Origin: Romanomermis culicivorax
Taxonomy: Eukaryota > Nematoda > Enoplea > Mermithida > Mermithidae
Direction: 5' to 3'
Length of the DNA stretch: 64,000 bases
Assembly (NCBI GenBank): GCA_963922205.1
Contig: CAWUHX010000168.1
Location: forward strand, 532,760 to 596,759
How positions within the stretch are numbered: the stretch's first letter is position 1; every line of letters begins with the position of its first letter. Under the pieces are notes generated by a model. That model was not told where the DNA came from. It saw only the letters and a list, made by a program, of their open reading frames with translations, and searched no databases. Of this stretch, positions 21,101 through 64,000 are shown piece after piece. Both the position numbers and the translations under genes were made by a program.

Positions 21101-24100
21101 AATTCAATACAATTTATTATTTTCGTATGAAACTTTACACTTTTAATGATAAAAATCAGTTTAAATTAAAAATTTTGGTGAAAATACACCATTTTACACT
21201 AAAAATGTGAAATTTTTTCCATAATAATATTTTAAAATTCGAATATTTTAATGAACAAAAAATCTATAAAATTTATAAGTTTAAATTTAAAACACAATTT
21301 TTCAACCCGTGAAAAACGTGTTTTAAAAATAATATAAAAATAGTAGCTTTTACCTCGTAAATTTGCACCCGTCGATGACAAATTTGGGCCATATTTCCGA
21401 GAAATTAACATATTTTCGTAAATTTGAATTTGGCGCGTTAAATTGGCTAATTTTTCTTCCGATACCAAAGCAGCGTTCGTTAAAAAACTATAAAAAATAC
21501 AAATACAAAATAAAAAAAAATACAGAAATAAAGTTGAAAAAAATACAAAAATCAACAAAGTAAAAAAATTTTAAAAAACACAATACAAAACAAAAAAACA
21601 AAACTACAAAAAAATACAAAATATACAAAAAAGCCAAAATTCAAAAACAAAAAAAAATACAGAACAAAAAAGCAAAATAAAAAAAGACAAAATACAAAAA
21701 AAGCAAAAATACAAAATAAAACAAACCAAAAATACAAAGTACAAAAATCAAAAAAATAAAAAATTAAAAAAATACTAGTATAGAAAAATACGAAACATAA
21801 AAAAACCAAAATACAAAACACAAAAAAAAAAACAAAAATACAACTACAAAAAAAACAACAATACAAAATACAAAAAAAAACCAAAATTCAAAAATAAAAA
21901 AATACAAAATACAAAAAAAGCAAAAATACAAAAACATACAAAATACAAAAAAACAGAAACAGAAAACACAAAAATTCAAAAAAAAAAACCGGAAATGCCT
22001 GTAAAAATGAAAATTTAAATAATTTTTTGTGAAAAAAGCACTACTTTTGAAGAAAAATTCAAAATTTTACCTTTATAAAGTCAAAAAAAGAAAAAAAATA
22101 GAGTATAAATTTTTTACAACTTTCTACCACAAAAATTTGAAAATTTAAATTTTCAATACTATAAAATAGCCCTATGCTATAACATATGCCTATGTTATAA
22201 CATGCAATTTTTTCCGTTTTTTCATTTTTCGACATGTTATAACATTGTCCTATGCTATAACATGGGCCTATGTTACAACATACAATTTTTTTTCATTTTG
22301 TCGAGATGTTATAAAACATACTGATATGTTATAAAATAGTCCTGTGTTATGACATGGTCCTATGTTACAACATATACAATGATATAAAATATAACATATG
22401 TTAAAACATAATGCATGTTATTGTGTATGGTATAACACAGAATATGTTATAACATGGGGTATGCTATAACACTGGGTATCTTATAACATGAGAGAATGGT
22501 ATAACACGGGGTATGTTATAACATGAGGAGCTACGTTATAACACAGTGTATGTTGTAAAATGGGGAGGTGTTATAACATAGGATATGTTGTAAAATATCG
22601 GATGTTTTGGAATGTATCATGTTATAACATGTTCCACATCATAACATATACCACATTTAAGAATATACATGCTATAACATACCCTATGTTTATAACATAT
22701 CCCATATTATAACATATGCCTGTTGAACTTTATATATCGGAAAAAAATTTTTCAAGAAACTTGTAATGTAGGATAAGCTATGAGATGGGATGTATGGGAC
22801 ATGTTTTAATATCAGATATGTTATAACATGGAACGTGTTATAACGTGGAATATGCTATAACGTAGTATACGCTATACTACGGGATATGTTATAACATAGC
22901 ATATCTTTTAACATGGAATATATCTAACATGAGATATGTTATAACATGGGATACAAATATGTAAAATATGGCATTTTAAACTTGAAAATTTTTTTTTTCA
23001 TACTTGATTAAAACCATATAGCCGTAATGCGTATAACCGCTATTCGGCGATTCTACCAAATGTAAAGCCATTTCGGCGCTCCTTAAATCCTAAATAACAA
23101 AAGAAAAATGTAACTAAATTTTCACAAACTTTACACCAAACGATTTTTTTCTTACAACTTTACACCAGCAGAAGTTTTTGTACAAGTTTACACCAAAAAT
23201 TTCTTCCAAAACTTTACACCAACAGAAATTTCCTTACAACTTTACACACGAAGAAATTGCTTCACAGCTTTACACCAAAAGCAGTTTTCTACAAGCTTAC
23301 ACAAACCAAAGTTTTTTTTAAACAACTTCACACCAAAAGATTTTTTCACAAGTTTACACCATAAGGGGCGTTTTAAAAGTTTACACCAAACGAATTTATT
23401 TTCGCAGGTTTACACCATTTACAAGATTATACCAAATAGAGTTTTTTTACAACTTTACACCAAAGGGAGTTTTTCAAAAGTTTACATCAGAAGACGTTTT
23501 TTAAAATTTTAAACTAGAATAAATAATCTTACAACTATGAACCATATTAAATTATTTCACAATTTTACACCAAAAAGGATTTTTTCACAACTTTACACCG
23601 AAAAATGAATTTTTTCACAAATTTACACTTCTTACTCGACGCGATTCGGCTTTCAAATCTTGCGATTTTTGACCGTAAATTTCCAATTTAGACTTTTGTT
23701 CGATTAAATTAGCGTTCAATTTACGTAAACTTTCTTGAAAATTTGGTCCATTTTCAACGTCGTAATATTCGGCCAAAATTGATTCGGAAAAATTTAATTG
23801 CGTTTTAAGAAAATTTCTAAATATAAAAAAAAAGGAAATTTAAACAAAAAAATGCGTTTTCAAGCTAAAATTTACTTGAAATTTTCCACTAATTGTAAAA
23901 TTTCCGCGGGTAAAGGCGTCAACATCGGGGTCATAATTCTAGGGGGAAAACCTCGAAAATTAAAAAAAAAACCAAAAATCCCCAAAAATCACTTTTCGTC
24001 GACGTTTTCTCGATTTTGATCGGAAAAATTCGACGTCGACGTCGAACCTCCCAAACCGCCGAGACCCAAGCTAGAAGTTGTCGCCGCCGGCGGCGGTTGG

Positions 24101-24259
24101 GCTTGGGCGGCGACGGAAATCCCCGGCGTTCCGAAACTCAACGCCGCGGCGGCGGCTGAGAAAGGAGGAAAAAAATATCGACAGATTTTTTGATCTGGAG
24201 AAAAATCGTCGAAAAAACTTACTCGTATTTGGAGTCTGCGAAGGATTAAATTGAAACAT
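15175..24259 (-). CDS. npp-4: Nucleoporin Nup58/Nup45 (NPP-4-like)
   Basis: Nine exons: 24259-24223, 24155-23993, 23938-23876, 23816-23636, 23089-23004, 21487-21354, 18498-18151, 18097-17867 and 15248-15175. They sum to 1317 nt, giving 438 residues with all phases consistent. It has a short N-terminus (MFQFNPSQTPN), an alanine/proline/serine/glycine-rich linker, then an alpha-helical region. The latter includes ILAEYYDVENGPNF, AEMALHLVESPNSGY, LANLTRQIQIYENML and DDMKELFLNYRRRYFND, matching the Nup58 coiled coil before its YLGYRKMFLGD segment. Nup58 forms the central channel with Nup62 and Nup54. Only two FG dipeptides are visible (SFGTPG, RPFGVL). The tail instead has five 10-residue NQWNLGATPN repeats, then a glutamine run and a basic end (SSKRNKTGFFKET). 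The four longest introns (about 0.5-2.9 kb) are repeat-filled. Confidence 0.87.
15255..17800 (-). repeat. npp-4 intron 8 repeat with a 538-base duplication
   Basis: Units of very roughly 150 bases contain GGAATTTTCAGTCGAAAATT, TAAAAGCTCGAAAATTACAA and AATTTCAAAATTTACAGTG. A segment starting near 16405 is repeated almost exactly from about 16943 to 17490, an offset of 538 bases judged from a shared word at 16452 and 16990. No coding potential is seen. Confidence 0.7.
17934..18083 (-). repeat. 30-base coding minisatellite in npp-4 exon 8
   Basis: Five in-frame 30-base units encode NQWNLNATPI, NQWNLGATPN, NQWNLGATPN, NQLTLGATPS and NQWNLGAAPT. On the plus strand the units read TGGGCGTGGCTCCCAAATTC and so on. 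They are notably richer in GC than the surrounding introns. Confidence 0.85.
18560..20600 (-). repeat. npp-4 intron 6 satellite, about 193-base composite unit
   Basis: T-rich repeat with alternating half-units CTGTACTTTGTAAATACTTT and TATTTTGTAAATATTTTTCC. The phrase CCTATTTTTCTGTACTTTG recurs near 19050, 19252, 19443, 19636, 19830, 20015 and 20210, giving about 190-195 base spacing. From 20600 to 21230 related but reverse-composition A-rich sequence (ATTTACAAAAAAATT) takes over. ORFs rich in F and Y here are artefacts. Confidence 0.75.
21490..21990 (-). repeat. A-rich ACAAAATACAAAA low-complexity tract in npp-4 intron 5
   Basis: About 500 bases of nearly pure A/C with occasional T, built from the words AAAATACAAAAT, AAAAACAAAAATAC and ACAAAAAAGC. 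No order beyond short-period slippage is visible. Confidence 0.7.
22150..22975. repeat. ATGTTATAACAT palindromic satellite in npp-4 intron 5
   Basis: Dozens of copies of the perfect palindrome (A)TGTTATAACA(T), with variants such as GCTATAAC and GTTACAAC, are separated by 8-20 base spacers like GGGTATG or TGGCCTA. The core is self-complementary, so strand is undefined. The same family appears at 63455-64000, 40 kb away in a different gene. Confidence 0.8.
23125..23632 (-). repeat. npp-4 intron 4 satellite (TTTACACCA family)
   Basis: The intron between exons 4 and 5 is filled with ACAACTTTACACCAAAAG-type units. They are recognisably the family that fills frg-1 intron 4 about 13 kb away, in the same orientation. 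Confidence 0.75.
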
Positions 24260-24324
24260 GATTTAGATTTGGATCGAATCGGGGAGAGAGAAACGAAATT
24301 TCGCCGTTTTGATTGCATTCCAGA

Positions 24325-24326
24325 CT
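24325..24326 (-). promoter_or_regulatory. Candidate trans-splice acceptor of npp-4
   Basis: The minus strand reads ATTACTGTAG ending here, 66 bases before the npp-4 ATG. It is 120 bases downstream of the unc-62 AATAAA. Confidence 0.4.
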
Positions 24327-24445
24327 ACAGTAATTCTTATTTCGTTTTGAAAATAATTCTAACGGTAATAACTTGTTGATCATATACATTCAGCGACAAA
24401 ACGACCAACATGTAGATAAATCATTAAGTAATCATAAATATACAA

Positions 24446-24451
24446 TTTATT
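24446..24451 (-). other. Polyadenylation signal of unc-62
   Basis: AATAAA on the minus strand 38 bases after the predicted TAA at 24489-24491. Confidence 0.55.
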
Positions 24452-24488
24452 AAAACAAAGACAGCATAATATTTTTTTTGAATTAATT

Positions 24489-27400
24489 TTATCTAGCCCA
24501 CGACGAAACCGAATCCAAATGGAGAATCGAGCTGAAAAATACAAATTTTTACAGCACAACCTAGCATTGCGATTCGCAAGTACAAAAAATCAACCTTTCG
24601 CCGTTACAGTACAAATTTTGAATATGGTCGCCGCCGCTATCCTGAATAATATTCCTATCTTGAGGATCAACTACAAAAAAATTACTGTAGAAGATATGCA
24701 GCGACAAATTTCGACCTTACCCGGCTGCGGCGTCCTGCGATGCCTGCTGCGCTTGGACGGCGCAGCGTCCGGCGACGGCGTCAAATCGTCGGCGGACGAC
24801 GCTGCGACGGCGGTCGTCAAAAAAGTCCCCGAAGCGTTATGGCGATTATTTTGATCGATCATCGGTTGTACGATACGGCGTCTAGCGTTTATGAACCAAT
24901 TATTCACTTGCAATATTGTCAAACCGGTATCTAGCGCCAATTGCTTTTTCTGATCTTCGGACGGGTACGGATGCTAATAAAATAAGTAAAAAGAAATTTG
25001 TCACCTTTTAAAATGGAACGCAAGTTAAGCTATTGTAGGCAATTTGGGACTCTTGTACAAGAAGTTTACTGTAGCACCAATTTTCGGAATAAGATGCTGA
25101 AAAAACTATTTTGTCATTTTTCAAAATGGAACGCAAGTTATACTATTGTGAACAATTTTTCCTCATTTGTGGAGCAATTTACTGTAGCACCAATTTTCTA
25201 GGAAGAATGCCTGAAAGAAGAGTTTTGTCATTTTTATGAATGAAACGCAAGTTACGCCTCTAGGAAATTACTGTAGGACTAATCTTCCACAACCGATGCT
25301 AAATAGAATTTTGTCACTTTTTAAAATGGAATGCAAGTTACGCTATCATGGCTAATTTTTGCTTATCGATAGAGGAACTTACTGTAGAACTAATTTTCGA
25401 GGAAGAATACTAAGAAAAGAATTTTGTCGTTTCCAAAATTGGAGCGCAAGTTACGCCTCTGTAGACAATTTTTTGATTATTCGTGAAGGAAATTACTGTA
25501 GCACCAATTTTCGGGAAGCAATGTTAAAGAAGAATTTTGTCTTCTTTAAAAATGGAACGCAAGTTGCGCTTTATGGGCAGATTGAATTGTTTGTTAACAA
25601 ATTTACTGTAGCACTAATTTTCGAGAAAAGATTCTAAAAAATAATTTTGTAATTTTTCGAAATGGAACGCAAGTTACGCTATTGTAAACGATTCTTGCTC
25701 ATTTGTGAAGAAATTTACTGTAGGACTAATTTTCCTGCAAAGACCTGAAAAAATAATTTTGTCATTTTTTAAATGGAAACGCAAGTTACACTGGTATAAA
25801 CAATTTTGGATTGCTTTTGAACTAATTCACTGTAATGTCATTTTTTGAGGTAGGAAAAAGAATTTTGCCATTTTTAAAATTGGAATGCAAGTTACACTAA
25901 TACATAAATTTTGGGATTGTTCGTGAAAAAATTTACTGTAGGACTAAATTTTCGAGGAAGGATGCTAATTTCGCCAGTTTTAGAAAGGTAAAGCAAGTTA
26001 CACATTATATATAATTTGTGATTAGTCGTCGAGGAATTTACTGTAGCAATAAGCTCTCAGAAAGAACGCTGTGGAAAAAAATTTGTCGTTTTTTAAAAAT
26101 GGAACGCAAGTTACGCTATTATGGTTATTTCGCGACCTTTCAAAAGGTAGTTTACTGTTATATTCGTGGGCACTTTCGGAAAAAGGACGCTTAGAAAATT
26201 TTTTCGTCAATTTTTAAAAATGGAACGCAAGTTACGCTACTATGGTCAATTGATGAATGTCCAAAAAGAAGTTTACTGTAGAAATTTTTTTTTTCTAGGG
26301 CAGAAAATTCACCGTCAAATGTTGAAAAAGCCACGCTCGCATAATATTCGTCGCAACTTTGGGGAAAATGCCGCGTTTTTTGGGTGGTTTTTCGGCTCGC
26401 GAAACGTTGCCGCTATTCGACGCCGGGGACGTCGTCGACGACGATTCGCCGCCGACCATGCGGCCCTCATCAATCGCCGAAGATTGTTGTTTGACAGCGG
26501 CAGCTGCATAGAAAAAAAATTTCGCATTTCGGGACGCTAATGCATTTAGCGCTGAATGTTCAATTCTCGCTAAATGGACCAGTAATTCTATTAGGCAATA
26601 ATTGGTTTACTGTAGATTTTGAAAATCGATACGCACTTGCGTATCGAAATTAGATTACGACACACGCTAATGGTACTTGATTATTAAATTATGAATAAAG
26701 CCGAGTGATTTTTTACCTCGTTGCCCCGCATCGTCGAATAACGTTTGGCCAGGCGCCAACGACGTATAAAATCCCATCTCTTCGACCGGCTGTTGTATAA
26801 AGCAAAAAAAGATCAATAAGTGCCAGAATTTCGTGCGGAGAAGATAATTATTTTTTTGTACATGTCTTACTGTAGCTCGCAATTATCTTTCCCGGAGAAA
26901 ATGTGTATAACAGACTGTAAAATGGTAGATCATGCGTGTAGTGGTTTATCTTGATTAGCAATATAATGGGATAATACGCATGGTCGGCCTAAATTATGGG
27001 TCATTATTTATGTTATTCATGCGCGCGGATCTGCGTTATTGATAGGATATATACACGGCAGCCGCCTGTTTTCGTCATTAATATTTAATAAGGCGGCAGG
27101 TACATTTGGTGGGTTACTGTAGACATAGTGCCTAATTATCCAAACTTGCGAGAAATGTCGCAAAAATTTTTTTCGCATAAAATATTCTGAAAATCGTGTT
27201 AAAATAACCAATTTTGGTACCAATCGATAGATCTCAACGAGACCTATCGAATGGTACTATTTAAAACCTTATATCTCTAATTTTGACAAAGTTATCGTCT
27301 TTCAAAAATTAGAGCAGCGTCAATTGACGTATAGAACAACTATTTGAAAATTCAAGATTACGGGTCATGCACGCGGATCTGCGTTACTGATAGCATATAT

Positions 27401-30400
27401 TATACATGGCGGCCGCTTGTTTTCGTCATAAATATTTAATAATGCGACAGGTACATTTCGTTGGTTACTGTAGACGTAATGCCTAATTATCCAAACTTGC
27501 GAGAAATGTCACAAAAATTTTTTTTGCATAAAATATTTGAAAATTGCGTTAAAATAATCAATTTTGATACCAATCGATAGATCTCGACGAGACCTATCGA
27601 ATGGTACTATGTTTAACGTTATATCTCCAATTTTGACAAAGTTATCGCCTTTCAAAAAATAGCATAGCGTCAATTGACGTACTCAACAACTATTCGAAAT
27701 ATCAAGATTACGGGTCATTATTTATCTTATTCATGCGCGCGGATCTGCATTACTGATAAGATATATTATACTTGGCGGCCGCCTGTTTTCGTCATTAATA
27801 TTTAATAAGGCGGCAGGTACATTTGGTGGGTTACTGTAGACATAGTGCCTAATTATCCAAACTTGCGAAAATGGTTGCAAAAATAAATTTTAACATAAAA
27901 TAGTTGAAAATTGTGCTAAAATACTTGATTTTGGTACTAATCGATAGATCTCGACGAAACCTATCGAATGGTACTATTTTCAACCGTATATCTCTAATTT
28001 TTATCCAGTTATCATTTTTCAAAAATTAGCACAGCGTCAATTGACGTATACAACAACTATTTGAAACATCAAAAGTACGGGTTCAAATTCCCACCTGTCC
28101 GTAATCGCCGTTATTAGAACCCATACTGTAAGGTCTATTAATAATGGGAGCTGTTGGCGGTGGCGAACGTCTTTCAGCGTCAATTTGCAATCGTTGCCGA
28201 TGACAAGAATCGGCGATTGCATCATCATCATCGTCGTTTAATAAATCATCCAAACAATCCTCATCATCGTCGTCGGATCCAACGCCGTTGTCGTTGATCA
28301 CCGACGATATTAAATCCGACGGCATTTTAGCTTTTAAACAATTGATATACCTTTGGCAAAAATTGTCGCATAGTTCGTGAACCTAGATTGAAAAATTGAT
28401 TTTTGATAGTTATTGGTCAAAAAATTGATTATAAACTATACATTTTATATATGAAATTGTAGATCTCGTTGAGACAAATCCAAAAAAGTAGTTTTCATTG
28501 CACAGCATCAATTTTTCGCGAAGTTATTTGCATTTAAAGATTTTACAAAGATCTACAGTACCCCCAATTAATTTTAGTACACTGTAAATGACAAAACCAA
28601 AAATTCTACCTTCTCCAATTCGAGCAAATGGAATCTGAGCACTTGAATAGCTTGCAGCATCTGAAAATGGAAAAATATACAAAAAAAGGATTTTAAGCAC
28701 GCTTCATTTCACCGGTTAATTGAGAAAAATTTTTCTCACCAAAGAATCTAATTCGGCGTTCGGTAAATAATAAGGCTTATCCGAACGAATCTTAAACAAG
28801 CGAAAAATCTAGATTAAAAACCACGGGTGGTCTTTTTTCCCCAATCATACTTGCTTATCAAAAATGGCCAAATCTTCCAGGAAACTGGTCGACGAACAAA
28901 CCAAATTGACATTGTTGCTCAATGACGAACCACCTCCAGAATTGTCGCGTGGCGTCAAAGTAGCCAATTCACATTTTTCGAAAATTAGGGCCAAAAGTGG
29001 GAAACAAGGGTGGCTAGAAAAAAAAATTTAGCATGGTGTTATATTTCAAAATTTGATACAGTTTATCGACGTTATGACGGTGATCAAAACTTTGATCCTC
29101 CGTAACTCACTCAAAAATGATCAAATCGTCATGAAAACTAATTTTTTGAAGATTATTCAACAAGATCTATCGAACGAATACACTTTTGTAAGGTCTTAAT
29201 CCAAACCTTCAGTTTGAAAAACAATGTTATATTGAGCGAAAATTCATTCGTCTGATGTCGCTGATCAAAACTTTGATCATCTATAACTCAATCAAAAATG
29301 CTCCTATCATTATGGAACTTAACTTTTTGGAAAGTATTTGATAAGATCTATTGATTGAGTATATTTTCAAAGATTTCCATTCTAAACTTCAGTTGAAAAA
29401 ATAATGATATTTCAAGCGAAAATTCATTTGTCTATTGTCGGCAATCAAAATTTTGATCCCCTATAACTCAATCAAAAATGTTAGTATCATCATGAAAAAT
29501 AATTGTTTTAAAAGTACTCAACCCGATCTTTCGAACAAGTAATTTTTCTAAGGTCTCAGATCAGAACTTTAGTTTTAAAAATAATGCTATATTAAGCCAA
29601 AATTCATTTGTCTGGTGTCGGTCCTCAAAACTTTGATCCTCTATAACTCAATCAAAAATGTTCGTATCATCATGAAAATTAATTTTTTGAGAAGTATTCA
29701 ACAAGATCTATCGAAAAAGTACACTTTTGTGAGGTCTTAATCCAAAATCTCAATATAAAAACAATGTTATATAGAGCAATAATTCATTCATCTGATGTTC
29801 GTGATCAAAACTTTGATGCTCTATAACTCCCTCAAAAATGTTCATATCATCAGGAAACAAAATTTTTTGAAAAGTATCCATCGAGATCTATAGAATGAGT
29901 ACACTTTTACGAGTCTTAATACAGAACTCAGGTTCAAAAAATAATGTTATATCAAGCGAAAGTTCATTCCTCGGATGTTAGTGATCAAAACTTTGATGCT
30001 CTATGACTCACTCAAAAATGTTTGTAGCATCATGAAAATTAATTTTTTGAAAAGTATTCAACGAGATCTATCGAATGAGTGCACGTTTACATGATCTTAA
30101 TGCAAAACTACAATTTGAAAAATTAATATTATATGGAGTAATAATTCATTCATCAGATGTCGGTCATCAAAATTTTGATCCTCCATAACTCAATCAAGAA
30201 TATTCAGAAATTTATGAAAATACAATTTTTGAAGAGAAATCGACATGCTCTATCGAACGAGTACACTTTTGTAGGGTCTTAGATTGAAATTGTGAATACC
30301 ATAGTTTGAATTAGCGATAGGTTATAGGATGATCTAACATGGATATCCAAAACTTTGACCCTTGATAAATCACTCAAAAATGGTCGCATAATTAGGAAAA

Positions 30401-33299
30401 TTAAAGTTTTGAAACGTATGAAACAAGATCTAGCGAACGAGTATACTTTTGTAGGGATTTAGACCAAAACTGACACTAGTAGATTTCGAAACAGTGATGT
30501 TTTATATCACGACTATTCATTGGTCTAATATCCGCATCAGCAAACTTTGACCCTCTATGACTCGCTCAAAAATGTTCAAATATTCATCAAAATATAAGCA
30601 TTCGAAAGTATTTCATGAGATCTATCGAACGAATACACTTTTGTAGGGTTTTAGATGAAAACTGACACCAGTATAGTTCAAAATAGCAATGTTTTATAGC
30701 GTGATTGTTAATCGATCTAATGTCGATGTTAGAAACTTTTACCCTCCATAACTCACTCAAAAATGTTCAAATATTCATCAAAATATAAGCATTCGAAAGA
30801 ATTTCATGAGATCTATCGAACGAATACACTTTTGTAGGGTCTTAGATGAAAACTGACACTAGCATAGTTCAAAATAGCAATATTCTATAGTGTGATTGTT
30901 AATCGATCTAATGTCGATGTTAGAAACTTCTACCCTCCATAACTCGCTCAAAAATGTTCAAATATTCATCAAAATATAAGCATTCGAAAGATTTTCATGA
31001 GATCTATCGAACGAATACACTTTTGTAGGGTTTCTGATCAGAACTATTGGAAAAATTTTGCACATTTACCTATAAATAAAATCCTTGTCGTGCTTCGTAC
31101 ATTGATTGAAAAAATCTCCAGCCACTCCTCCAGGCTGGTAACATTTGGTCGAAACAGCCACCGACCCATTAACTTGCTGCTGGTATTGTTTGTGTTGATA
31201 ATGGTGTTGGTAATATGTGGCTAAAAAGTCTGCAGCGGCGGCTGCTGGTATATTGTGAAGAACGGTGTGCGGTTGGTGTTCGACGATATTTTGCTGTAAG
31301 ATGCTGGGGTAAGTGGCAGGGGATGGCACATCGGACAGCTATAAGTAGAAGTGAGTGTAATTTTTAGAATGAGAGACTGACCACTTTAAAAAAAGAAAAC
31401 AAGAAAAAACCTAAAGTATTTCTCTAAAAGCGACATTTCAAAAGAATCCTGATTTTCAAAAATGACGTATCAAAAAAACAACAATTGATCAAGTTCAGTA
31501 TAAAATATAGATCTAAAAAGTTAGCCTAAACTAAAGATTCAGGTCCGTTCAGCACAAAAAAAAATCAAAATTTTAAGAGTCCTTGTACAAATACAACATT
31601 TTAAAAGAATTCCATTTTTTGACAAATGTCGTATCAAAAATAAAAACTTGATCAAGTTGAGTATTGTGATCAAACATACCTAGATCTCATAAGTTGAAAT
31701 AAATCAATAATATGTACCTGACCTTCAGATCTCTTCAGAAAAAAAAATTTTGAAAATTGAAAATTTCTTCTCCGAATACGACATTTCAAAAAGATCTAGA
31801 TTTTGGACAAATGACGTATCAAAAATTCAAATTTGATCAACTCATGTATTAAATTTAGATGTGAAAAATTAGCCTAAAGTGAAAAAATCTCTCTCATTTC
31901 AATGTCCCTTCATCAATAAAAAACTTTGAAAATTGAAAATTTCTTCTCCGAATACAACATTTCAAAAAAATTCCAGATTTTCGACAAATGACGTATCAAA
32001 AATACAAAATTGATCAATTTGAGTATTCTAATCAAATATATCTAGATGTGATAAGTTGAACTAAACCAGTAATATGCATATGATCTTCAGATCTCTTCAG
32101 AAAAAGAAAATTTTGAAAATTCAAAATTTGTTCTTTCGAATACGACATTTCAAAAAAATTCAAATTTTCGACAAATGATGTATCAAAAATGTAAATTTGA
32201 TCAAGTTGAGTATTCTAATCAAATATATCTAGATCTGATAAGTTGAACTAAATCAATAATATGTATCTGACCTTCAGATCTCTTCAGAAAAAGAAAATTT
32301 TGAAAATTCAAAATTTGTTCTTTCGAATACGACATTTCGAAAAAATTTCAGATTTTCCACAAATGACTTATCAAAAATTCAAATTTCATCAAGTTGATTA
32401 TTCTAATCAAATATATCTAGATCTGATAAGTTGAAGTAGATTAATAATATGTATCTGACCTTCTGATCTCTTCAGAAAAAGAAAATTTTGAAAATTCAAA
32501 ATTTGTTCTCCGAATACGACATTTCAAAAAAATTCCAGATTTTCGACAAATGTCGTATCAAAAATTCAAATTTGATCAAGTTGCGTATTCTAATCAAATA
32601 TATCTATATATGATAAGTTGAAGTAAATCAATTATATGCATATGACCTTCAGATTTCTTCAGAAAAAGAAAATTTTGAAAATTCAAAATTTGTTCTTTCG
32701 AATACGACATTTTGAAAAAATTCAAATTTTTGACAAATGATGTATCAAAAATGTAAATTTGATCAAGTTGAGTATTCTAATCAAATATGTCTAGATCTGA
32801 TAAGTTGAACTAAATCAATAATATGTATCTGACCATTAGATCTCTTCAGAAAAAGAAAATTTTGAAAATTCAAAATTTGTTCTTTCGAATACGACATTTG
32901 GAAAAAATTCCAGATTTTCCACAGATGACATCAAAAATTCAAATTTGATCAAATTAAATATTAAATTTAAATATCAAAAGTTAGCCTAAAATGAAAAAAT
33001 CTCTCTCATTTTAATGTCCATTCAGCACTACAAAAATGTCAAATTCAAGCATCGTTCCCTCGAATACGACATATCGAACGCCGCACGGCATTCAAATAAA
33101 TTTGCCAACTCAATTATAATAATAAAACAGCTCCTCAATACTCATTTATATAAATGCCTTTTGGCCACTTGACACTACTTTTTTGTGTTGCTTGCATTGA
33201 AAAAAGTCTTCAAAATCAATCACTTTTGATTGGCATTGAGAGGCCGAAAATCCAATTTTGAATTTTGTTGCTTACCTTTCGATGATTGTCGCTAGTCAT
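24489..33299 (-). CDS. unc-62: MEIS/Homothorax-type TALE homeodomain transcription factor
   Basis: Eleven exons: 33299-33276, 31338-31070, 29013-28851, 28790-28740, 28660-28610, 28382-28095, 26789-26717, 26503-26313, 24973-24721, 24670-24595 and 24531-24489. They sum to 1482 nt, giving 493 residues. The conserved MEIS (PBC-binding) domain starts near residue 99 with [20 protein letters not shown]. It continues through [34 protein letters not shown] and [20 protein letters not shown]. The TALE homeodomain spans exons 8 and 9: [20 protein letters not shown], the HPYPS loop, then [20 protein letters not shown]. It should act in the nucleus with PBC/Exd and Hox partners. Exon 2 is rich in His/Gln/Ala, and an acidic run (SDDDDED, NDDDDD) follows the MEIS domain. 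Exon 4 could start 18 bases earlier; the chosen start matches the family. The last two exons rest on a weak donor (AG|GTTGAT), and the first codons have no family support. Confidence 0.92.
24990..26300 (-). repeat. unc-62 intron 8 repeat (GGAACGCAAGTTACGCTA ... TTTACTGTAGCACC)
   Basis: About a dozen copies of a 110-125 base unit lie inside the intron that splits the homeodomain. Each has AAAATGGAACGCAAGTTACG, then TTTACTGTAGCACCAATTTT and TTTTGTCATTTTT. The order and spacing of these three words are kept although the sequence between them drifts. Confidence 0.75.
26998..28079 (-). repeat. Triplicated ~355-base unit in unc-62 intron 6
   Basis: Three tandem copies begin with GGGTCAT at 26998, 27362 and 27712 (spacings of 364 and 350). 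Each holds GCGCGGATCTGCGTTA, GGCGGCCGCCTGTTTTCGTC, TTACTGTAGACATAGTGCC, the palindromic block CGATAGATCTCGACGAGACC and CGTCAATTGACGTA. Copies are highly similar, suggesting recent duplication. Confidence 0.8.
29030..31045 (-). repeat. 180-base satellite in unc-62 intron 2
   Basis: Tandem units contain CTCTATAACTCAATCAAAAA, ATCATGAAAATTAATTTTTT, GAGATCTATCGAACGAGTAC and ACTTTTGTAGGGTCTTA. The word CTATAACTC (or a one-base variant) falls at 29281, 29461, 29641, 29821 and 30001, an exact 180-base spacing with no net indel. Beyond 30200 the spacing loosens slightly. Confidence 0.85.
31400..33000 (-). repeat. About 187-base satellite in unc-62 intron 1
   Basis: Units contain TTCGAATACGACATTTC, TTTTCGACAAATGACGTATC, TTGATCAAGTTGAGTATTCT, TATCTAGATCTGATAAGTTG and ACCTTCAGATCTCTTCAG. 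GACATTTC recurs at about 32145, 32331, 32518, 32705 and 32892. There are no exons inside. Confidence 0.8.
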
Positions 33300-53477: not shown

Positions 53478-53604
53478 GTGCGAAAAAGCAGAATTTTTTA
53501 ATTGTTCTGATACAGTAAACTGTAACTTTTGCACTGTGTCACAACAACTAGGATAAACTAGATTCTCAACCATGAGTTTTAGACACAAATCTGAACAATT
53601 TGAT

Positions 53605-54330
53605 TCTATTGTATTGTTTTGTATTGTATTGTATTGTATTGTATTGTATTGTATTGTATTGTATTGTATTGTATTGTATTGTATTGTATTGTATTGTATT
53701 GTATTGTATTGTATTGTATTGTATTGTATTGTATTGTATTGTATTGTATTGTATTGTATTGTATTGTATTGTATTGTATTGTATTGTATTGTATTGTATT
53801 GTATTGTATTGTATTGTATTGTATTGTATTGTATTGTATTGTATTGTATTGTATTGTATTGTATTGTATTGTATTGTATTGTACTGTATTGTATTGTATT
53901 GTATTGTATTGTACTGTATTGTATTGTATTGTATTGTATTGTATTGTATTGTATTGTATTGTATTGTATTGTATCGTATCGTATCGTATTGTATTGTATT
54001 GTATTGTATTGTATTGTATTGTATTGTATCGTATCGTATTGTATTGTATTGTATTGTATTGTATTGTATTGTATTGTATTGTATTGTATTGTATTGTATT
54101 GTATTGTATTGTATTGTATTGTATTGTATTGTATTGTATTGTATTGTATTGTATTGTATTGTATTGTATTGTATTGTATTGTATTCTATTGTATTGTATT
54201 GTATTGTATTGTATTGTATTGTATTGTATTGTATTGTATTGTATTGTATTGTATTGTATTGTATTGTATTGTATTGTATCGTATCATATCGTATTGTATT
54301 GTATTGTATTGTATTGTATTGTATTGTTTC
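53605..54330 (+). repeat. (GTATT)n pentanucleotide array, 0.7 kb, intergenic
   Basis: About 145 tandem GTATT units run without any visible frame slip, interrupted only by single-base variants (GTATC, GTACT, CTATT). It lies upstream of jmjc-1 and downstream of the cysteine-rich gene. From 54330 to 54540 it decays into ATATCATATTGTATC and similar words. All reading frames are open because the unit contains no stop, so the long CIVLY-type ORFs mean nothing. Confidence 0.95.
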
Positions 54331-56257: not shown

Positions 56258-59200
56258 TCAATCATCTAGGTAATAATCCCTTTCGGAATTTTTCATTAAT
56301 AGCTCGTAGAGCTCTCTGGGGCACAAAGTATTGAATTTGATGTTGCTTCCATGATCTACATTATGAATATTAAAATAATTGAATTTAGAGGATATAAAAA
56401 ATTATTTTTACCATCAGGGTTAGAACAATCTTCTAATGGATCGTCGCAATGAATTTCGATGAAATTTTCGTCGTTAGATTTGGAATCTATAAAAAGGTAT
56501 ACTTAAAAAATTAATTCTTCAATTCTGGACCAGCTAACTCATTTGCAAGTATTTAGCTTCATTGAGACCATATTCTAAAAAATTAAAAAAATTTGCATAT
56601 AAAAAATGCAAATTTTTCTATTCTAAAAGCGTACTTTGGCACATTTCGTATTTTTCGCATGAATCTACTTTTCCTGAAAAAAAAAATTTTTTTTTCAATA
56701 ATTTTTTCAGATTTATCATATATTTAAATTTCTCACTAAAAATAAATTCATCATCTTTCCTTGGTTTTCCTATCAAACATGTGTAAAATTTGGCCATTAA
56801 AATAAATTGCGCTTAAAAAATGTATCGTAATTGCATTGTTATACAAAAAAAGTGGAATAAGTAAAAAAAACCAAAAAATTGTAAAAACAACAAAAAAAAG
56901 TAAAAAAAGAAGAAAAAAAATTAAAAAAACCCAAAACTGTGAATTTACTTAATCGCTCGGCTTTTCCACCATTACAGAATACATTCGGCTTATCAGTTTC
57001 GTACGTTTCTAAAAAACAATTCTTTCTACATTAGAAAAGAAATTTAAAAAGTGTAAAACAAAATTTAAAAAGTGTAAAAAAAATTTTAAAAATGTAAAAA
57101 AATTTTAAAAGTGTAAAAAAAATTTTAAAAGTGTAAAAAAAAATTTAAAAAGCGTTCAAAAAAATTTTTTCACTTTTACACGGCATTACGCGACTGGTAC
57201 ATTTCAAATATTGCGGATTATAACGGCGAGCATAATCTTGCCCTGAAAAGAAATTTTTAATGCAAATATTGTAAAAGCATTCCATTAGTTGATAGGCTAA
57301 ACTTGTCAGTTTTAGAAAGTGACGTGCAAGATAACGTAGTTTCGAGTTTAAAGTTGCCAGTAGGTTTACAACATCAAAAATTACACTGACTGATTAAAGT
57401 CACCAGAAATTCATTCTTGTATTTTGCTCTGGTTGGGAGTGGTCATGTTGGTTGTTTGTTGTTGCAAGCTAAAATGTATTGTATTGTATTGTATTGTATT
57501 GTATTGTACTCTATTGTATTGTATTGTATCGTATTGTATTGTATTGTATTGTATTGTATTGTATTGTATTGTATTGTATTGTATTGTATTGTATTGTATT
57601 GTATTGTATTGTATTGTATTGTATTGTATTGTATTGTATTGTATTGTATTGTATCATATTGTATTGTATCGTATTGTATCGTATTGTATTGTATTGTATT
57701 GTATTGTATTGTATTGTATTGTATTGTATTGTATTGTATTGTATTGTATTGTATTGTATTGTATTGTATTGTATTGTATTCTATTCTATTGTATTGTATT
57801 GTATTGTATTGTATTGTATTGTATTGTATTGTATTGTATTGCATTCTATTGTATTGTATTGTATTGTATTGTATTCTATTGTATTGTATTGTATTGTATT
57901 GTATTGTATTGTATTGTATTGTATTGTATTGTATTGTATTGTATTGTATTGTATTGTATTGTATTGTATCGTATTGTATTGTATTGTAGTGTATTGTATT
58001 GTATTGTATTGTATTGTATTGTATTGTATTGTATCGTATTGTATTGTATTGTATTGTATTGTATTGTATTGTATTGTATCGTATTGTATTGTATCGTATT
58101 GTATTGTATTGTATTGTATTGTATTGTATTGTATTGTATTGTATTGTATTGTATTGTATTGTATTGTATTGTATTGTATTGTATTGTATTGTATTCTATT
58201 GTATTGTATTGTATTGTATTGTATTGTATTGTATTGTATTGTATTGTATTGTATTGTATTGTATTGTATTGTATTGTATTGTATTGTATTGTATTCTATT
58301 GTATTGTATTGTATTGTATTGTATTGTATTGTATTGTATTGTATTGTATTGTATTGTATTGTATTGTATCATATTGTATCGTATTGTATTGTATTGTATT
58401 GTATTGTATTGTGTTGTATTGTATTGTATTGTATTGTATTGTATTGTATTGTATTGTATTGTATTGTATTCTATTCTATTGTATTGTATTGTATTGTATT
58501 GTATTGTATTGTATTGTATTGTATTGTATTGTATTGTATTGTATTGTATTGTATTGTATTGTATTGTATTGTATTGTATTGTATTGTATTCTATTGTATT
58601 GTATTGTATTGTATTGTATTGTATTGTATTGTATTGTATTGTATTGTATTGTATTGTATCGTATTGTATTGTATCGTATTGTATTGTATTGTATCGTATT
58701 GTATTGTATTGTATTGTATTGTATTGTATTGTATTGTATCGTATTGTATTGTATCGTATTGTATTGTATTGTATTGTATTGTATTGTATTGTATTGTATT
58801 GTATTGTATTGTATTGTATTGTATTGTATTGTATTGTATTGTATTGTATTGTATTGTATTGTATTGTATTGTATTGTATCATATTGTATTGTATTGTATT
58901 GTATCGTATTGTATTGTATCGTATTGTATTGTATTGTATTGTATTGTATTCTATTGTATTGTATTGTATCGTATTGTATTGTATTGTATTTTATTGTATT
59001 GTATTGTATTGTATTGTATTGTATTGTATTGTATTGTATTGTATTGTATTGTATTGTATTGTATTGTATTGTATTGTATTGTATTGTATCGTATTGTATT
59101 GTATTGTATTGTATTGTATTGTATTGTATTGTATTGTATTGTATTGTATTGTATTGTATTGTATTGTATTGTATTGTATTGTATTGTATTGTATTGTATT

Positions 59201-62200
59201 GTATTGTATTGTATTGTATTGTATCATATTGTATTGTATCGTATTGTATCGTATTGTATTGTATTGTATTGTATTGTATTGTATTGTATTGTATTGTATT
59301 GTATTGTATTGTATTGTATTGTATTGTATTGTATTGTATCATATTGTATTGTATCGTATTGTATCGTATTGTATTGTATTGTATTGTATTGTATTGTATT
59401 GTATTGTATTGTATTGTATTGTATTGTATTGTATTGTATTGTATTGTATTGTATTGTATTCTATTGTATTGTATTGTATTGTATTGTATTGTATTGTATT
59501 GTATTGTATTGTATTGTATTGTATTGTATTGTATTGTATTGTATTGTATTGTATTGTATTGTATTGTATTGTATTGTATCGTATTGTATCATATTGTATT
59601 GTATCGTATTGTATCGTATTGTATTGTATTGTATTGTATTGTATTGTATTGTATTGTATTGTATTGTATTGTATTGTATTGTATTGTATTGTATTGTATT
59701 GTATTGTATTCTATTCTATTGTATTGTATTGTATTGTATTGTATTGTATTGTATTGTATTGTATTGTATTGTATTGTATTGTATTGTATTGTATTGTATT
59801 GTATTGTATTGTATTGTATTGTATTGTATTGTATTGTATTGTATTGTATTGTATTGTATTGTATTGTATTGTATCGTATTGTATTGTATTGTAGTGTATT
59901 GTATTGTATTGTATTGTATTGTATTGTATTGTATTGTATCGTATTGTATTGTATTGTATTGTATTGTATTGTATTGTATTGTATCGTATTGTACTGTATC
60001 GTATTGTATTGTATTGTATTGTATTGTATTGTATTGTATTGTATTGTATTGTATTGTATTGTATTGTATTGTATTGTATTGTATTGTATTGTATTGTATT
60101 GTATTGTATTGTATTCTATTGTATTGTATTGTATTGTATTGTATTGTATTGTATTGTATTGTATTGTATTGTATTGTATTGTATTGTATTGTATTGTATT
60201 GTATTGTATTGTATTGTATTGTATTGTATTGTATTGTATCATATTGTATTGTATCGTATTGTATCGTATTGTATTGTATTGTATTGTATTGTATTGTGTT
60301 GTATTGTATTGTATTGTATTGTATTGTATTGTATTGTATTGTATTGTATTGTATTGTATTCTATTCTATTGTATTGTATTGTATTGTATTGTATTGTATT
60401 GTATTGTATTGTATTGTATTGCATTCTATTGTATTGTATTGTATTGTATTGTATTGTATTGTATTGTATTGTATTGTATTGTATTGTATTGTATTGTATT
60501 GTATTGTATTGTATTGTATTGTATTGTATTGTATCATATTGTATCGTATTGTATTGTATTGTATTGTATTGTATTGTATTGTATTGTATTGTATTGTATT
60601 GTATTGTATTGTATTGTATTGTATTGTATTGTATTGTATTGTATTGTATTGTATTGTATTGTATTCTATTGTATTGTATTGTATTGTATTGTATTGTATT
60701 GTATTCTATTGTATTGTATTGTATTGTATTGTATTGTATTGTATTGTATTGTATTGTATTGTATTGTATTGTATCATATTGTATTGTATCGTATTGTATC
60801 GTATTGTATTGTATTGTATTGTATTGTATTGTGTTGTATTGTATTGTATTGTATTGTATTGTATTGTATTGTATTGTATTGTATTGTATTCTATTCTATT
60901 GTATTGTGTTGTATTGTATTGTATTGTATTGTATTGTATTGTATTGTATTGTATTGTATTGTATTGTATTCTATTCTATTGTATTGTATTGTATTGTATT
61001 GTATTGTATTGTATTGTATTGTATTGTATTGCATTCTATTGTATTGTATTGTATTGTATTGTATCGTATTGTATTGTATTGTATTGTATTGTATTGTATT
61101 GTATTGTATTGTATTGTATTGTATTGTATTGTATTGTATTGTATTGTATTGTATTGTATTGTATCATATTGTATTGTATCGTATTGTATCGTATTGTATT
61201 GTATTGTATTGTATTGTATTGTATTGTATTGTATTGTATTGTATTGTATTGTATTGTATCATATTGTATTGTATCGTATTGTATCGTATTGTATTGTATT
61301 GTATTGTATTGTATTGTATTGTATTGTATTGTATTGTATTGTATTGTATTGTATTGTATTGTATTGTATTGTATTGTATTCTATTGTATTGTATTGTATT
61401 GTATTGTATTGTATTGTATTGTATTGTATTGTATTGTATTGTATTCTATTGTATTGTATTGTATTGTATTGTATTGTATTGTATTGTATTCTATTGTATT
61501 GTATTGTATTGTATTGTATGGTATTGTATTGTATTCTATTCTATTCTATTGTATTGTATTGTATTGTATTGTATTGTATTGTATTGTATTGTATTGTATT
61601 GTATTGTATTGTATCGTATTGTATTGTATTGTATTGTATTGTATTCTATTGTATTGTATTGTATCGTATTGTATTGTATTGTATTTTATTGTATTGTATT
61701 GTATTGTATTGTATTGTATTGTATTGTATTGTATTTTATTCTTCTGTTTTCCATTGTATTTTATTGTTTTGTATTGTCTTGGCCGATATGGGACTGCTTT
61801 GGCACAACCTAGGAAGCCCTTCAACACAACTCAAACTTACAATTTTCTAGAGATTTTGCTTCCAATGCTTTTTGGGCTAAAATATTTTGAATTTAAAATT
61901 TTGTATAATATCAAATATTTAATAAAATAAATTACTAAAACAATTAAAATGTCCATCGCAATCATTCACAACTGTAAAGAATGCATGTTTTAATAGAGAA
62001 TCAACTCTTAATTAACAATTTACTTTTATAAATTTTTTGATTTGTGTCGCAATAAGTGTACGTAACAATTTTAACGTCATTGTTCGCTATATTAAATAAA
62101 TGATTAAAATATTTAAATGTTGAGATAGTTTTCTTACTTTTGTTGTGAAAGCGTTCCAAATCTTCTTGCGAACAATACACGTTATATGGATTTTCTACAA

Positions 62201-63425
62201 AATTATAAATATCAATATTACTAATGTTAATCTATATTGTATACTTCGACATTGTTGTCCCGTCACATCACAGTTAAACAAATGACTCGGGTTGTAATGC
62301 TTAAACGCTGAAATGCGACATATTTACATATTTAACATTGGCAAAAATGTAACTTTTTACAAAGTTCTTCAGCAAATTGTAATCTTAATTGGTATTCTTC
62401 TTCAAAAATATCTGAAAAAATACCATTTTATATATTTACATATGTTTAATAAGTTGAAACATACGTAAACAGTTGTCGAATATCTTATTGCATAGGTGAT
62501 CAGTTTCTAAAATTATAAAATATTTTACATCAATTTACAATTTTTCAAAATAAACTTACTCATCAAATATATCTTATTTTGATCAATACAACCTTTAAGC
62601 ACAGCCACATGTAATTTCTCTAAATATATAAACTATTAATCGTTAGGCTGTCATATCTCGAAACATTAAATACTTGGTTGCGGAATCAAACCAACTTTTA
62701 ATGCTTGGGATTTTGGACAAAATAGATTGCTAATTTGTTTAACAGATTCTAATAAATAAAAGTATAATTATTTCTTCAAATTAAAATATTTTAATCATTT
62801 AAATTAAACCTTTGCAATTAAATGCTTCGCCCAAAGTGTCGAAATCGCATTTAAAAAATGTTGAATTTCTAAATATGATGTCGAGTGTCAAATCTATAAA
62901 ATATAAAATTTTAATATTATTTAAATATTATATTAAACTTTTTCTATTCATGACTATTGTTTATATAAGCAACGCGACGACTGGGCAAAATTTCGCAATA
63001 TCCTCCGTACGGAATATATTCGCAATTTTGTTCGTGATCACCGACTTAAATATATATATTTCAAAAAAAAAATAATTTAAATAATTTTTTGATTAAAAAA
63101 ATATTAAAATTTACAAATATAATAACTTTCTTCTATTGGTCTATCACAGTAACGCATTGTTAAAACTGGTCGATTAACTAAAAAAACTACCATTTAATAT
63201 TTAATTTAGAAAAATTAGCGAAACTTACGAAAATTTGTATATTGTCGGTATTCGCAAAATGTATTCATTTTATTGGTTTCACTAATTAGAGCTTTAAGAA
63301 CATTTTATAAATATAAGTTTGCTGTAGGATTAAAAAATAAAGTGTTATACCTGTGCATGACTCATTGCCACAGGAAATAAGTTTCATGGATGATATATTG
63401 CGAACCAACTCTACGCTGAGTCTAT
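56258..63425 (-). CDS. Unrecognised cysteine-rich modular protein of phase-1 mini-exons (3' part)
   Basis: Eighteen exons: 63425-63351, 63291-63229, 63177-63127, 63044-62982 (or 62955), 62893-62810, 62748-62692, 62619-62560, 62506-62465, 62411-62337, 62307-62245, 62194-62138, 61971-61936, 57242-57174, 57008-56949, 56673-56635, 56574-56539, 56486-56412 and 56355-56258. Every internal exon is 3n long (36-84 nt) and every junction is phase 1. The visible part is about 367 residues with about 27 cysteines, mostly one or two per exon. A repeating module is visible: YNPSHLFNCDVTGQQCRK, NPYNVYCSQEDLERF, VNDCDGHFNC, then again RYNPQYLKCTSRVMPCK, TDKPNVFCNGGKAERL, VDSCEKYEMC. Weaker copies start FFKCDFDTLGEAFNC and KLISCGNESCT. 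The cysteine content suggests a secreted or extracellular protein. I recognise no family, and the N-terminus is outside the window. It stops at YYLDD. Several donors are weak (GTTTGA, GTTATT, GTTAAA), but the frame works throughout. Confidence 0.72.
57475..61770 (+). repeat. 4.3 kb (GTATT)n array inside an intron of the cysteine-rich gene
   Basis: About 860 units of GTATT (minus strand AATAC) keep an apparently unbroken 5-base register from end to end, with only substitutions (GTATC, ATATT, CTATT, GCATT, GTGTT). Variant units are not random: the string GTATCATATTGTATTGTATC occurs at 57651, 59221, 59336, 59586, 60236, 60771, 61161 and 61256. It is often followed about 120-130 bases later by CTATTCTATT. 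The array lies in the intron between the exons at 61971-61936 and 57242-57174. Long ORFs on both strands are artefacts of the stop-free unit. Confidence 0.95.
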
Positions 63426-63454
63426 CTACAAAGATTGTTACATATAATATATTT

Positions 63455-64000
63455 GGCTAGCAATGCTCGCATTACATATATTATAATATATCCCATGTTA
63501 TAACATATCTCCTGCTATAACACCCCCATGCTATAACATACCCCATGCTATAACGCTCCTCATGTTATAATATATCCTATCTCAAAACATACTACGTTAT
63601 AACACATCTCATACTACAACATATATACCAAATTATAGCATATCCCACATTATAACATGTTCCATGTTACAACATCTCTTATCTTATTACATATCACATA
63701 TTATAGCATACTCTACATTATAACATAATACATGTCAGTATTTTAAAAATCCCATCTTAAAATATACTATGTTATAACACATCTCATATTATAACACATA
63801 TATGACATTATACCATATCCCACATTATAACGCATTCCATGTTACAATGTATCAATGTATCTTATGTTATTACATATTGCATGTTACAGCATATCCTACA
63901 TTACAACATATTACATGTCAGTATGTTATAACTTTTAGCCATGTTATAATATATCCTATCTTAAAACATACTATGTTATAACACATCTCATATTATAACA
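63455..64000. repeat. TATAACAT palindromic satellite, upstream intron of the cysteine-rich gene
   Basis: Repeats of CCATGTTATAACATATC with variants (GCTATAAC, ACATTATAAC, GTTACAAC) run to the window edge. It is the same family as 22150-22975. The phase of exon 63425-63351 shows that coding sequence continues upstream, so this is probably intronic. Confidence 0.7.

Follow-up and report, generated by a model that had tools for sequence, protein, structure and literature searches.

A candidate nematode gene of phase-1 mini-exons arranged in a repeating five-exon, six-cysteine cassette

Genes made of many small exons that share a single phase have been described as rare (PMC9168663). The schistosome micro-exon genes (MEGs) combine a signal peptide with very small symmetrical exons over most of the coding region and appear to be restricted to platyhelminths (PMC4350168). 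Bicycle genes, a fast-evolving salivary effector family of aphids, phylloxerans and scale insects, have about 17 exons on average, and nearly every internal exon begins at codon position 2 (PMC9168663). Such a start corresponds to a phase-1 intron, which makes the bicycle genes a nearer structural parallel to the present case than the MEGs that the initial annotation of this DNA had named. The KQY/KHI cassette effectors of the pea aphid join a secretory signal exon to many miniature exons, and in KQY1a 33 of the 37 exons measure 15 bp or less (PMC7495047). Here we compare these systems with a mini-exon gene read from the minus strand of a 64,000-nucleotide stretch (the window; positions 532,760 to 596,759) of contig CAWUHX010000168.1, called C168 below, which belongs to a nematode genome of 359 Mb in 595 contigs.

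Within the window the gene runs from position 63425, the opening base of its first exon there, down to 56258, the final base of a TGA stop codon. We read 20 mini-exons of 36–98 nucleotides (nt) with GT/AG borders in this interval, or 21 with a tentative one at 56811–56737, and all of their joins are in phase 1. The initial annotation, whose observation is confirmed by this reading, had counted eighteen; its outer coordinates were exact. Nine leading exons lie past the end of the window, on the contig upstream of this part of the gene, so that the exons are numbered E1 to E29, with the tentative one as E25b. The first base of E1 (C168 601939–601870) lies 5,180 bases past the window end, and the exon ends in phase 1. 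Its translation, MKFVLLCVIVTFVNSGQYILDRK, also quoted as the start MKFVLLCVIVTFVNSG, resembles a signal peptide as judged by eye and by hydropathy, with a mean of 3.3 on the Kyte-Doolittle scale for the 11 most hydrophobic residues; secretion, which had been suggested before these upstream exons were read, thus gains a candidate leader.

The full model, which spans C168 589017–601939 and includes tentative choices at E13, E18 and E25b, comprises 30 exons and 29 phase-1 introns and encodes 720 residues. Its coding sequence of 2,163 nt contains a single in-frame stop, the last codon, and the protein carries 43 cysteines (6%) and 13 N-x-S/T sequons, 12 of them within the first 391 residues. Each of the 28 internal exons has a length divisible by 3 and joins in phase 1, in agreement with the symmetric mini-exons proposed earlier. 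Their median length is 63 nt and they span 30–135 nt, except for E2 with 243 nt. Exons have a G+C fraction of 0.344, and introns shorter than 300 nt one of 0.144. From E10 to E23 the 13 introns measure 50–70 nt, with the ends of E13 and E18 partly picked to give such lengths.

Candidate exons were scored with a general splice-site table that had not been trained on this gene, and three pieces of the gene, with a summed length of 4,183 bases and including a piece from upstream of the window, were compared with shuffled sequence. On the minus strand, phase 1 holds 22 non-overlapping candidates, compared with 8 for phase 0 and 5 for phase 2; on the plus strand phase 0 has 4, phase 1 has 2 and phase 2 has 3. 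Over 200 dinucleotide shuffles the phase-1 count averages 2.98 and never exceeds 8, so the observed density is sevenfold; for cysteine-bearing phase-1 candidates, 17 are observed against a shuffle maximum of 5. The surrounding DNA gives a second control. When 303 kb of the contig is cut into 4,260 overlapping intervals of 1.7 kb, each taken by strand and phase, the three richest (7, 6 and 6 candidates) all fall in the gene and represent three separate parts of it, each on the minus strand and in phase 1. None of the 4,158 intervals outside the gene holds more than 5.

The exons sort into five classes, and the series a-b-c-d-e repeats along the gene, with 2-1-1-2-0 cysteines per class, giving a cassette of about 85–105 residues and six cysteines. 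Five cassettes can be traced, two of them with adjacent exons fused and the last complete only if E25b is real; a terminal a-b pair and a diverged N-terminal unit are found in addition. The order does not depend on our eye. For 24 exons (E6–E29 without E25b), a cyclic labelling that allows few skips and takes pairwise similarity as its sole input returns the hand-drawn labels exactly, with a score of 76.0. Among 300 permutations of exon order, optimised alike, the mean is 25.4 and the maximum 56.6, and none reaches the observed score. The three-exon module first proposed for this locus is therefore replaced by a unit of five exons, while the underlying idea of repeated cysteine-bearing modules is borne out by the class order and by the profile analysis that follows.

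In that analysis each unit was scored against a profile of the others, and the score was compared with those of full shuffles and of shuffles that preserve the cysteines. With the first model and 300 shuffles of each kind, units 3–7 beat all shuffles of both kinds, and unit 8 beats 300 full and 297 cysteine-preserving ones. After refinement, with a longer E13, with E25b included and with unit 1 omitted, units 2–7 beat 500 of 500 shuffles of both kinds, and unit 8 beats 500 full and 499 cysteine-preserving shuffles of 500.

Several results weigh against a gene of this kind, or against parts of the model. A looser exon-chain score over the 303 kb ranks several other places above the gene. Most of these are tandem repeats or repeated peptides, with the exception of C168 331630–334129, and a run with a strict splice threshold gave no help, calling zero exons in the real gene sequence. 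A cruder chain test of exon order is not significant (719 of 2,000 permutations are as good). The hand-drawn labels outscore all of 5,000 shuffled labellings, but since they had been assigned by eye, the constrained labelling replaced both of these earlier tests. All 24 exons fit 2-1-1-2-0 in their cysteine counts when two skips are allowed, whereas 0 of 20,000 permutations do so and the best reaches 21; because this pattern was derived from the data on which it was tested, and because E18 matches it with the chosen donor and breaks it with the other, we treat the count as descriptive. Unit 2 was weak before refinement, its score being reached by 8 full and 5 cysteine-preserving shuffles of 300. 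Unit 1, which corresponds to E2, falls outside the cassette profile, as 108 full and 132 cysteine-preserving shuffles of 300 are as good, so that E2 is not supported as a cassette. The score of E25b against the other c exons is at shuffle level (reached by 585 full and 622 cysteine-preserving shuffles, out of 1,000 of each kind), and the exon therefore stays tentative despite its fitting position and single cysteine. The E13 donor, the E18 donor and E25b are our choices, the first two partly set by intron length. No family expansion is seen in the genome queries described below, whose power is low. Finally, we infer the extracellular role; no sequence feature shows a host-facing function.

The 12 candidate phase-1 mini-exons at C168 331630–334129, on the plus strand outside the window, have no repeated 4-mers, and this chain may be due to chance or may represent another small-exon gene. 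Other clusters of mini-exons from a scan of the window and its flank had, on reading, the look of tandem repeats or scattered noise.

Inside the window, all on the minus strand, the series opens with cassette 2: E10 (63351–63425; class a, two cysteines), E11 (63229–63291; class b, one cysteine, donor GTAAGT), E12 (63115–63177; class c, one cysteine) and E13 (62955–63044), in which classes d and e are fused and which holds two cysteines; the donor of E13 is weak and its end uncertain, with 62979 as the alternative. E5 (135 nt), upstream, likewise unites classes d, e and a in one exon, so that some of the borders between exons have apparently disappeared. Cassette 3 comprises E14 (62810–62893; class a, two cysteines), E15 (62674–62748; class b, one), E16 (62560–62619; class c, one), E17 (62465–62506; class d, two) and E18 (62361–62411; class e, none). 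The donor of E18 was picked to give a next intron of 53 nt, while the alternative end at 62337 adds two cysteines and leaves an intron of 29 nt. In cassette 4 the class a exon E19 (62245–62307) reads YNPxxLxC...C and is followed by E20 (class b, 62138–62194), E21 (class c, 62024–62086), E22 (class d, 61936–61971) and E23 (class e, 61841–61876). Beyond an intron of 4.6 kb (57243–61840) lies cassette 5, with E24 (class a, again YNPxxLxC...C, 57174–57242), E25 (class b, 56949–57008), the tentative class c exon E25b (56737–56811; one cysteine), which was placed where the cassette order requires a c exon, E26 (class d, 56635–56673) and E27 (class e, 56539–56574). The terminal unit consists of E28 (class a, 56412–56486) and E29 (class b, 56258–56355), which closes with TGA.

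The long intron is filled by TGTAT repeats over about 4.3 kb (57475–61740; 755 TGTAT words), and a second (TGTAT)n array lies at 53600–54330. A minisatellite of the type TTATAACATA occupies much of the intron between E9 and E10 (63430–64000) and recurs at 22150–22950. Intron 1 contains 32 copies of TTAGGC (C168 601205–601396), which we take to be the nematode-type telomere repeat, together with a four-copy array; six further arrays lie more upstream.

Is the cassette a known domain in disguise? The initial annotation had recognised none, and our searches agree with it for the parts covered. For the joined protein (with the short form of E13 and without E25b), Pfam gave no match; its best hit, at E = 0.12, is ribulose-phosphate epimerase, an unrelated enzyme. 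Three pieces found nothing above cut-off in NCBIfam, where the single match (E = 0.02) reaches 14.2 bits, the cut-off being 212.6, and again concerns the epimerase, which we regard as chance-level in both databases. Exons E3–E18 joined (372 letters) gave only chance-level matches in the PDB, the best at E = 0.16 to Cdc24, and a profile of seven units found no PDB match. Three protein queries of the genome, together covering all exons except E1, E9, E25b, E28 and E29, revealed no convincing second copy of the gene; these queries are low-powered for short exons, one of them recovering only 3 of its own 7, and a diverged family elsewhere in the genome is possible. Weak matches on contigs C10 (E = 0.49) and C318 (E = 1.2) look like chance, and the DNA around the former has no excess of phase-1 candidates. 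A tblastn search of plasmids with E2 found no match.

These searches bear on the alternative that survives best, in which the product is an ordinary protein of the extracellular-matrix or receptor type, its repeats being a fast-diverged known cysteine-rich domain spread by the usual class 1-1 shuffling, with no special role at a host interface. Cysteine-rich domains are numerous in nematodes, and introns within duplicated units inherit their phase. Moreover, class 1-1 modules dominate the animal proteins made by exon shuffling, and like our gene these proteins have phase-1 symmetrical units and are mostly extracellular (PMC8001218). The lack of a match near threshold in Pfam for the joined protein and of any PDB match for the seven-unit profile argues in the other direction. 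So does the placement of the introns: classical modules have phase-1 introns at domain borders, flanking the domain (PMC8001218), whereas here the introns inside the unit are in phase 1 too and each fifth of the putative domain is a 1-1 exon of its own. We consider this explanation somewhat unlikely, though it deserves to be kept in mind.

The comparison with MEGs and bicycle genes turns on the host. The genome contains 50 matches to Col_cuticle_N, the cuticle-collagen N-terminal domain, and 38 to TTR-52, compared to zero in 14 control genomes; both are families that we take to be nematode-specific, and the genome belongs to a nematode. The exact 22-base SL1 spliced leader, in the sequence we take it to have, is absent from the whole genome, and with three mismatches SL1 has one match versus eight for the reversed control. 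Its absence would be in keeping with a nematode from a group that does not use SL1, for example a mermithid. Since the gene sits in a nematode, it belongs neither to the hemipteran bicycle genes nor to the flatworm MEGs, although its build is like that of both.

A true MEG is thus rejected, and the likeness drawn by the initial annotation is an analogy, because the genome is a nematode's and MEGs appear to be restricted to platyhelminths (PMC4350168). The gene could nevertheless work as MEGs do, with mini-exons skipped in varied combinations to yield a pool of variant secreted proteins that face a host. A signal-peptide-like exon, here judged by eye and hydropathy, followed by very small symmetrical exons over most of the coding region, is what the two have in common (PMC4350168), and the missing SL1 would lend a little support by suiting a parasitic dorylaimian such as a mermithid. 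The repeated six-cysteine cassette is where they part. That five cassettes retain the order of their cysteines suggests a need for whole domains and not for loose exons. In addition, the internal exons, E2 apart, range up to 135 nt, and exons of MEGs are typically shorter than those of this gene. Splicing of the MEG kind is in our opinion unlikely here. Taken overall, the earlier interpretation is partly supported.

Membership in the bicycle family was the first strong lead and was dropped once the host was recognised as a nematode, since the family comes from aphids, phylloxerans and scale insects. The resemblance extends to the intron phase, to the number and small size of the exons and to the leading signal sequence; no sequence similarity to known domains is seen in bicycle genes or in the parts of our gene that were searched, and bicycle genes have multiplied units too, from unicycle to tetracycle and megacycle (PMC9168663). 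Our gene differs in its nematode host, in its strict five-exon, six-cysteine cassette and in having been found once, while a classifier counts from 2 bicycle genes in Ericerus pela to 653 in Hormaphis cornu (PMC9168663). Wherever the fold of an aphid bicycle protein is predicted with high confidence, it contains alpha-helical saposin-like domains (PMC13041983); crude propensities, which are weak evidence, favour strand for our class c and helix for class e and are nearly even for a, b and d. The literal string CYC is absent from our protein (the spaced C-Y-C motif was not searched for), and coccid and phylloxeran members are without an obvious C-Y-C motif as well (PMC9168663). We regard membership as highly improbable. 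The KQY/KHI effectors share the secretory signal exon and many miniature exons with our gene, but belong to an insect, and the abstract describes no six-cysteine unit (PMC7495047). Hardly credible, finally, is that the chain is a reading artefact of AT-rich DNA or a decayed pseudogene: the poor donors at E7, E13, E14 and E27, the abundance of GT and AG pairs in such DNA and the higher-scoring loose chains elsewhere speak for it, and it is contradicted by the shuffle and neighbouring-DNA controls, by the contrast in G+C between exons and introns, by the 2,163 nt without an in-frame stop before the last codon and by the repeat order of the exon classes.

We therefore return to an intact nematode gene, whose exon chain is read from the DNA and which would encode a secreted, disulphide-rich cassette protein grown by tandem duplication; for this explanation as a whole we estimate a probability of about 0.62. 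What the nucleotide sequence itself shows is a series of exons that share one phase, a first exon resembling a signal peptide, and the repeat. The five-exon unit would have been duplicated in tandem, with introns in phase 1 both within and between units. The product, of about 720 residues, appears to be secreted, on the strength of the leader as judged by eye and hydropathy, and would probably be N-glycosylated. Each cassette may fold as one disulphide-bonded extracellular domain, so that the mature protein would carry some six or seven related domains in a row and could act as a multivalent binder in the extracellular space, most likely on a surface or in secreted material that faces the environment or a host.

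To our knowledge, the known cases of small exons in a single phase are flatworm MEGs and aphid bicycle genes, and in both the products are secreted and presumed to target a host. By analogy with these, a host- or environment-facing role is our best guess for the nematode protein. Because every internal exon is a multiple of 3 and of the phase 1-1 type, the reading frame survives when an exon or an entire cassette is added, removed or skipped, and this would allow the protein to change fast. The logic would be the same as in schistosome MEGs and aphid bicycle genes, here in a nematode and with an unrecognised domain. Among the matches listed in the open-access literature, judged by titles and the openings of abstracts and with subscription journals mostly outside, we found no nematode gene of this design; in the listed nematode papers that match “microexon” the term merely names an aligner option.

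In the window, eight open reading frames gave nothing above cut-off in Pfam, and scans for transfer RNAs and Rfam families were empty. At 17775–18595, overlapping open reading frames of 205 residues (plus strand) and 175 residues (minus strand) cross a 30-bp tandem repeat at 17947–18083 and have no Pfam match. The region 24001–32000 has a G+C fraction of 0.33–0.37, above that of the rest of the window, and contains tandem units of 112–367 bp; the two open reading frames tested there have no Pfam match.

Could this be a third independent origin of the mini-exon design for secreted proteins, after the flatworm MEGs and the hemipteran bicycle genes? In its full form, with a new six-cysteine extracellular domain in which each piece of the fold has its own phase-1 exon, pieces that evolution or splicing could swap, and a variable protein at a host interface, the proposal is rather doubtful. 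A nematode case with a regular five-exon cassette would show that the mini-exon design arises repeatedly, and the idea that symmetric mini-exons mark a fast-varying secreted protein would become testable by a search for this gene structure in nematode genomes. The gene also bears on the preference of exon shuffling for phase 1, as the smallest unit here is a fifth of a putative domain and not a domain. The phase-1 rule holds inside the unit too, so that fifths of the putative domain would be exchangeable.

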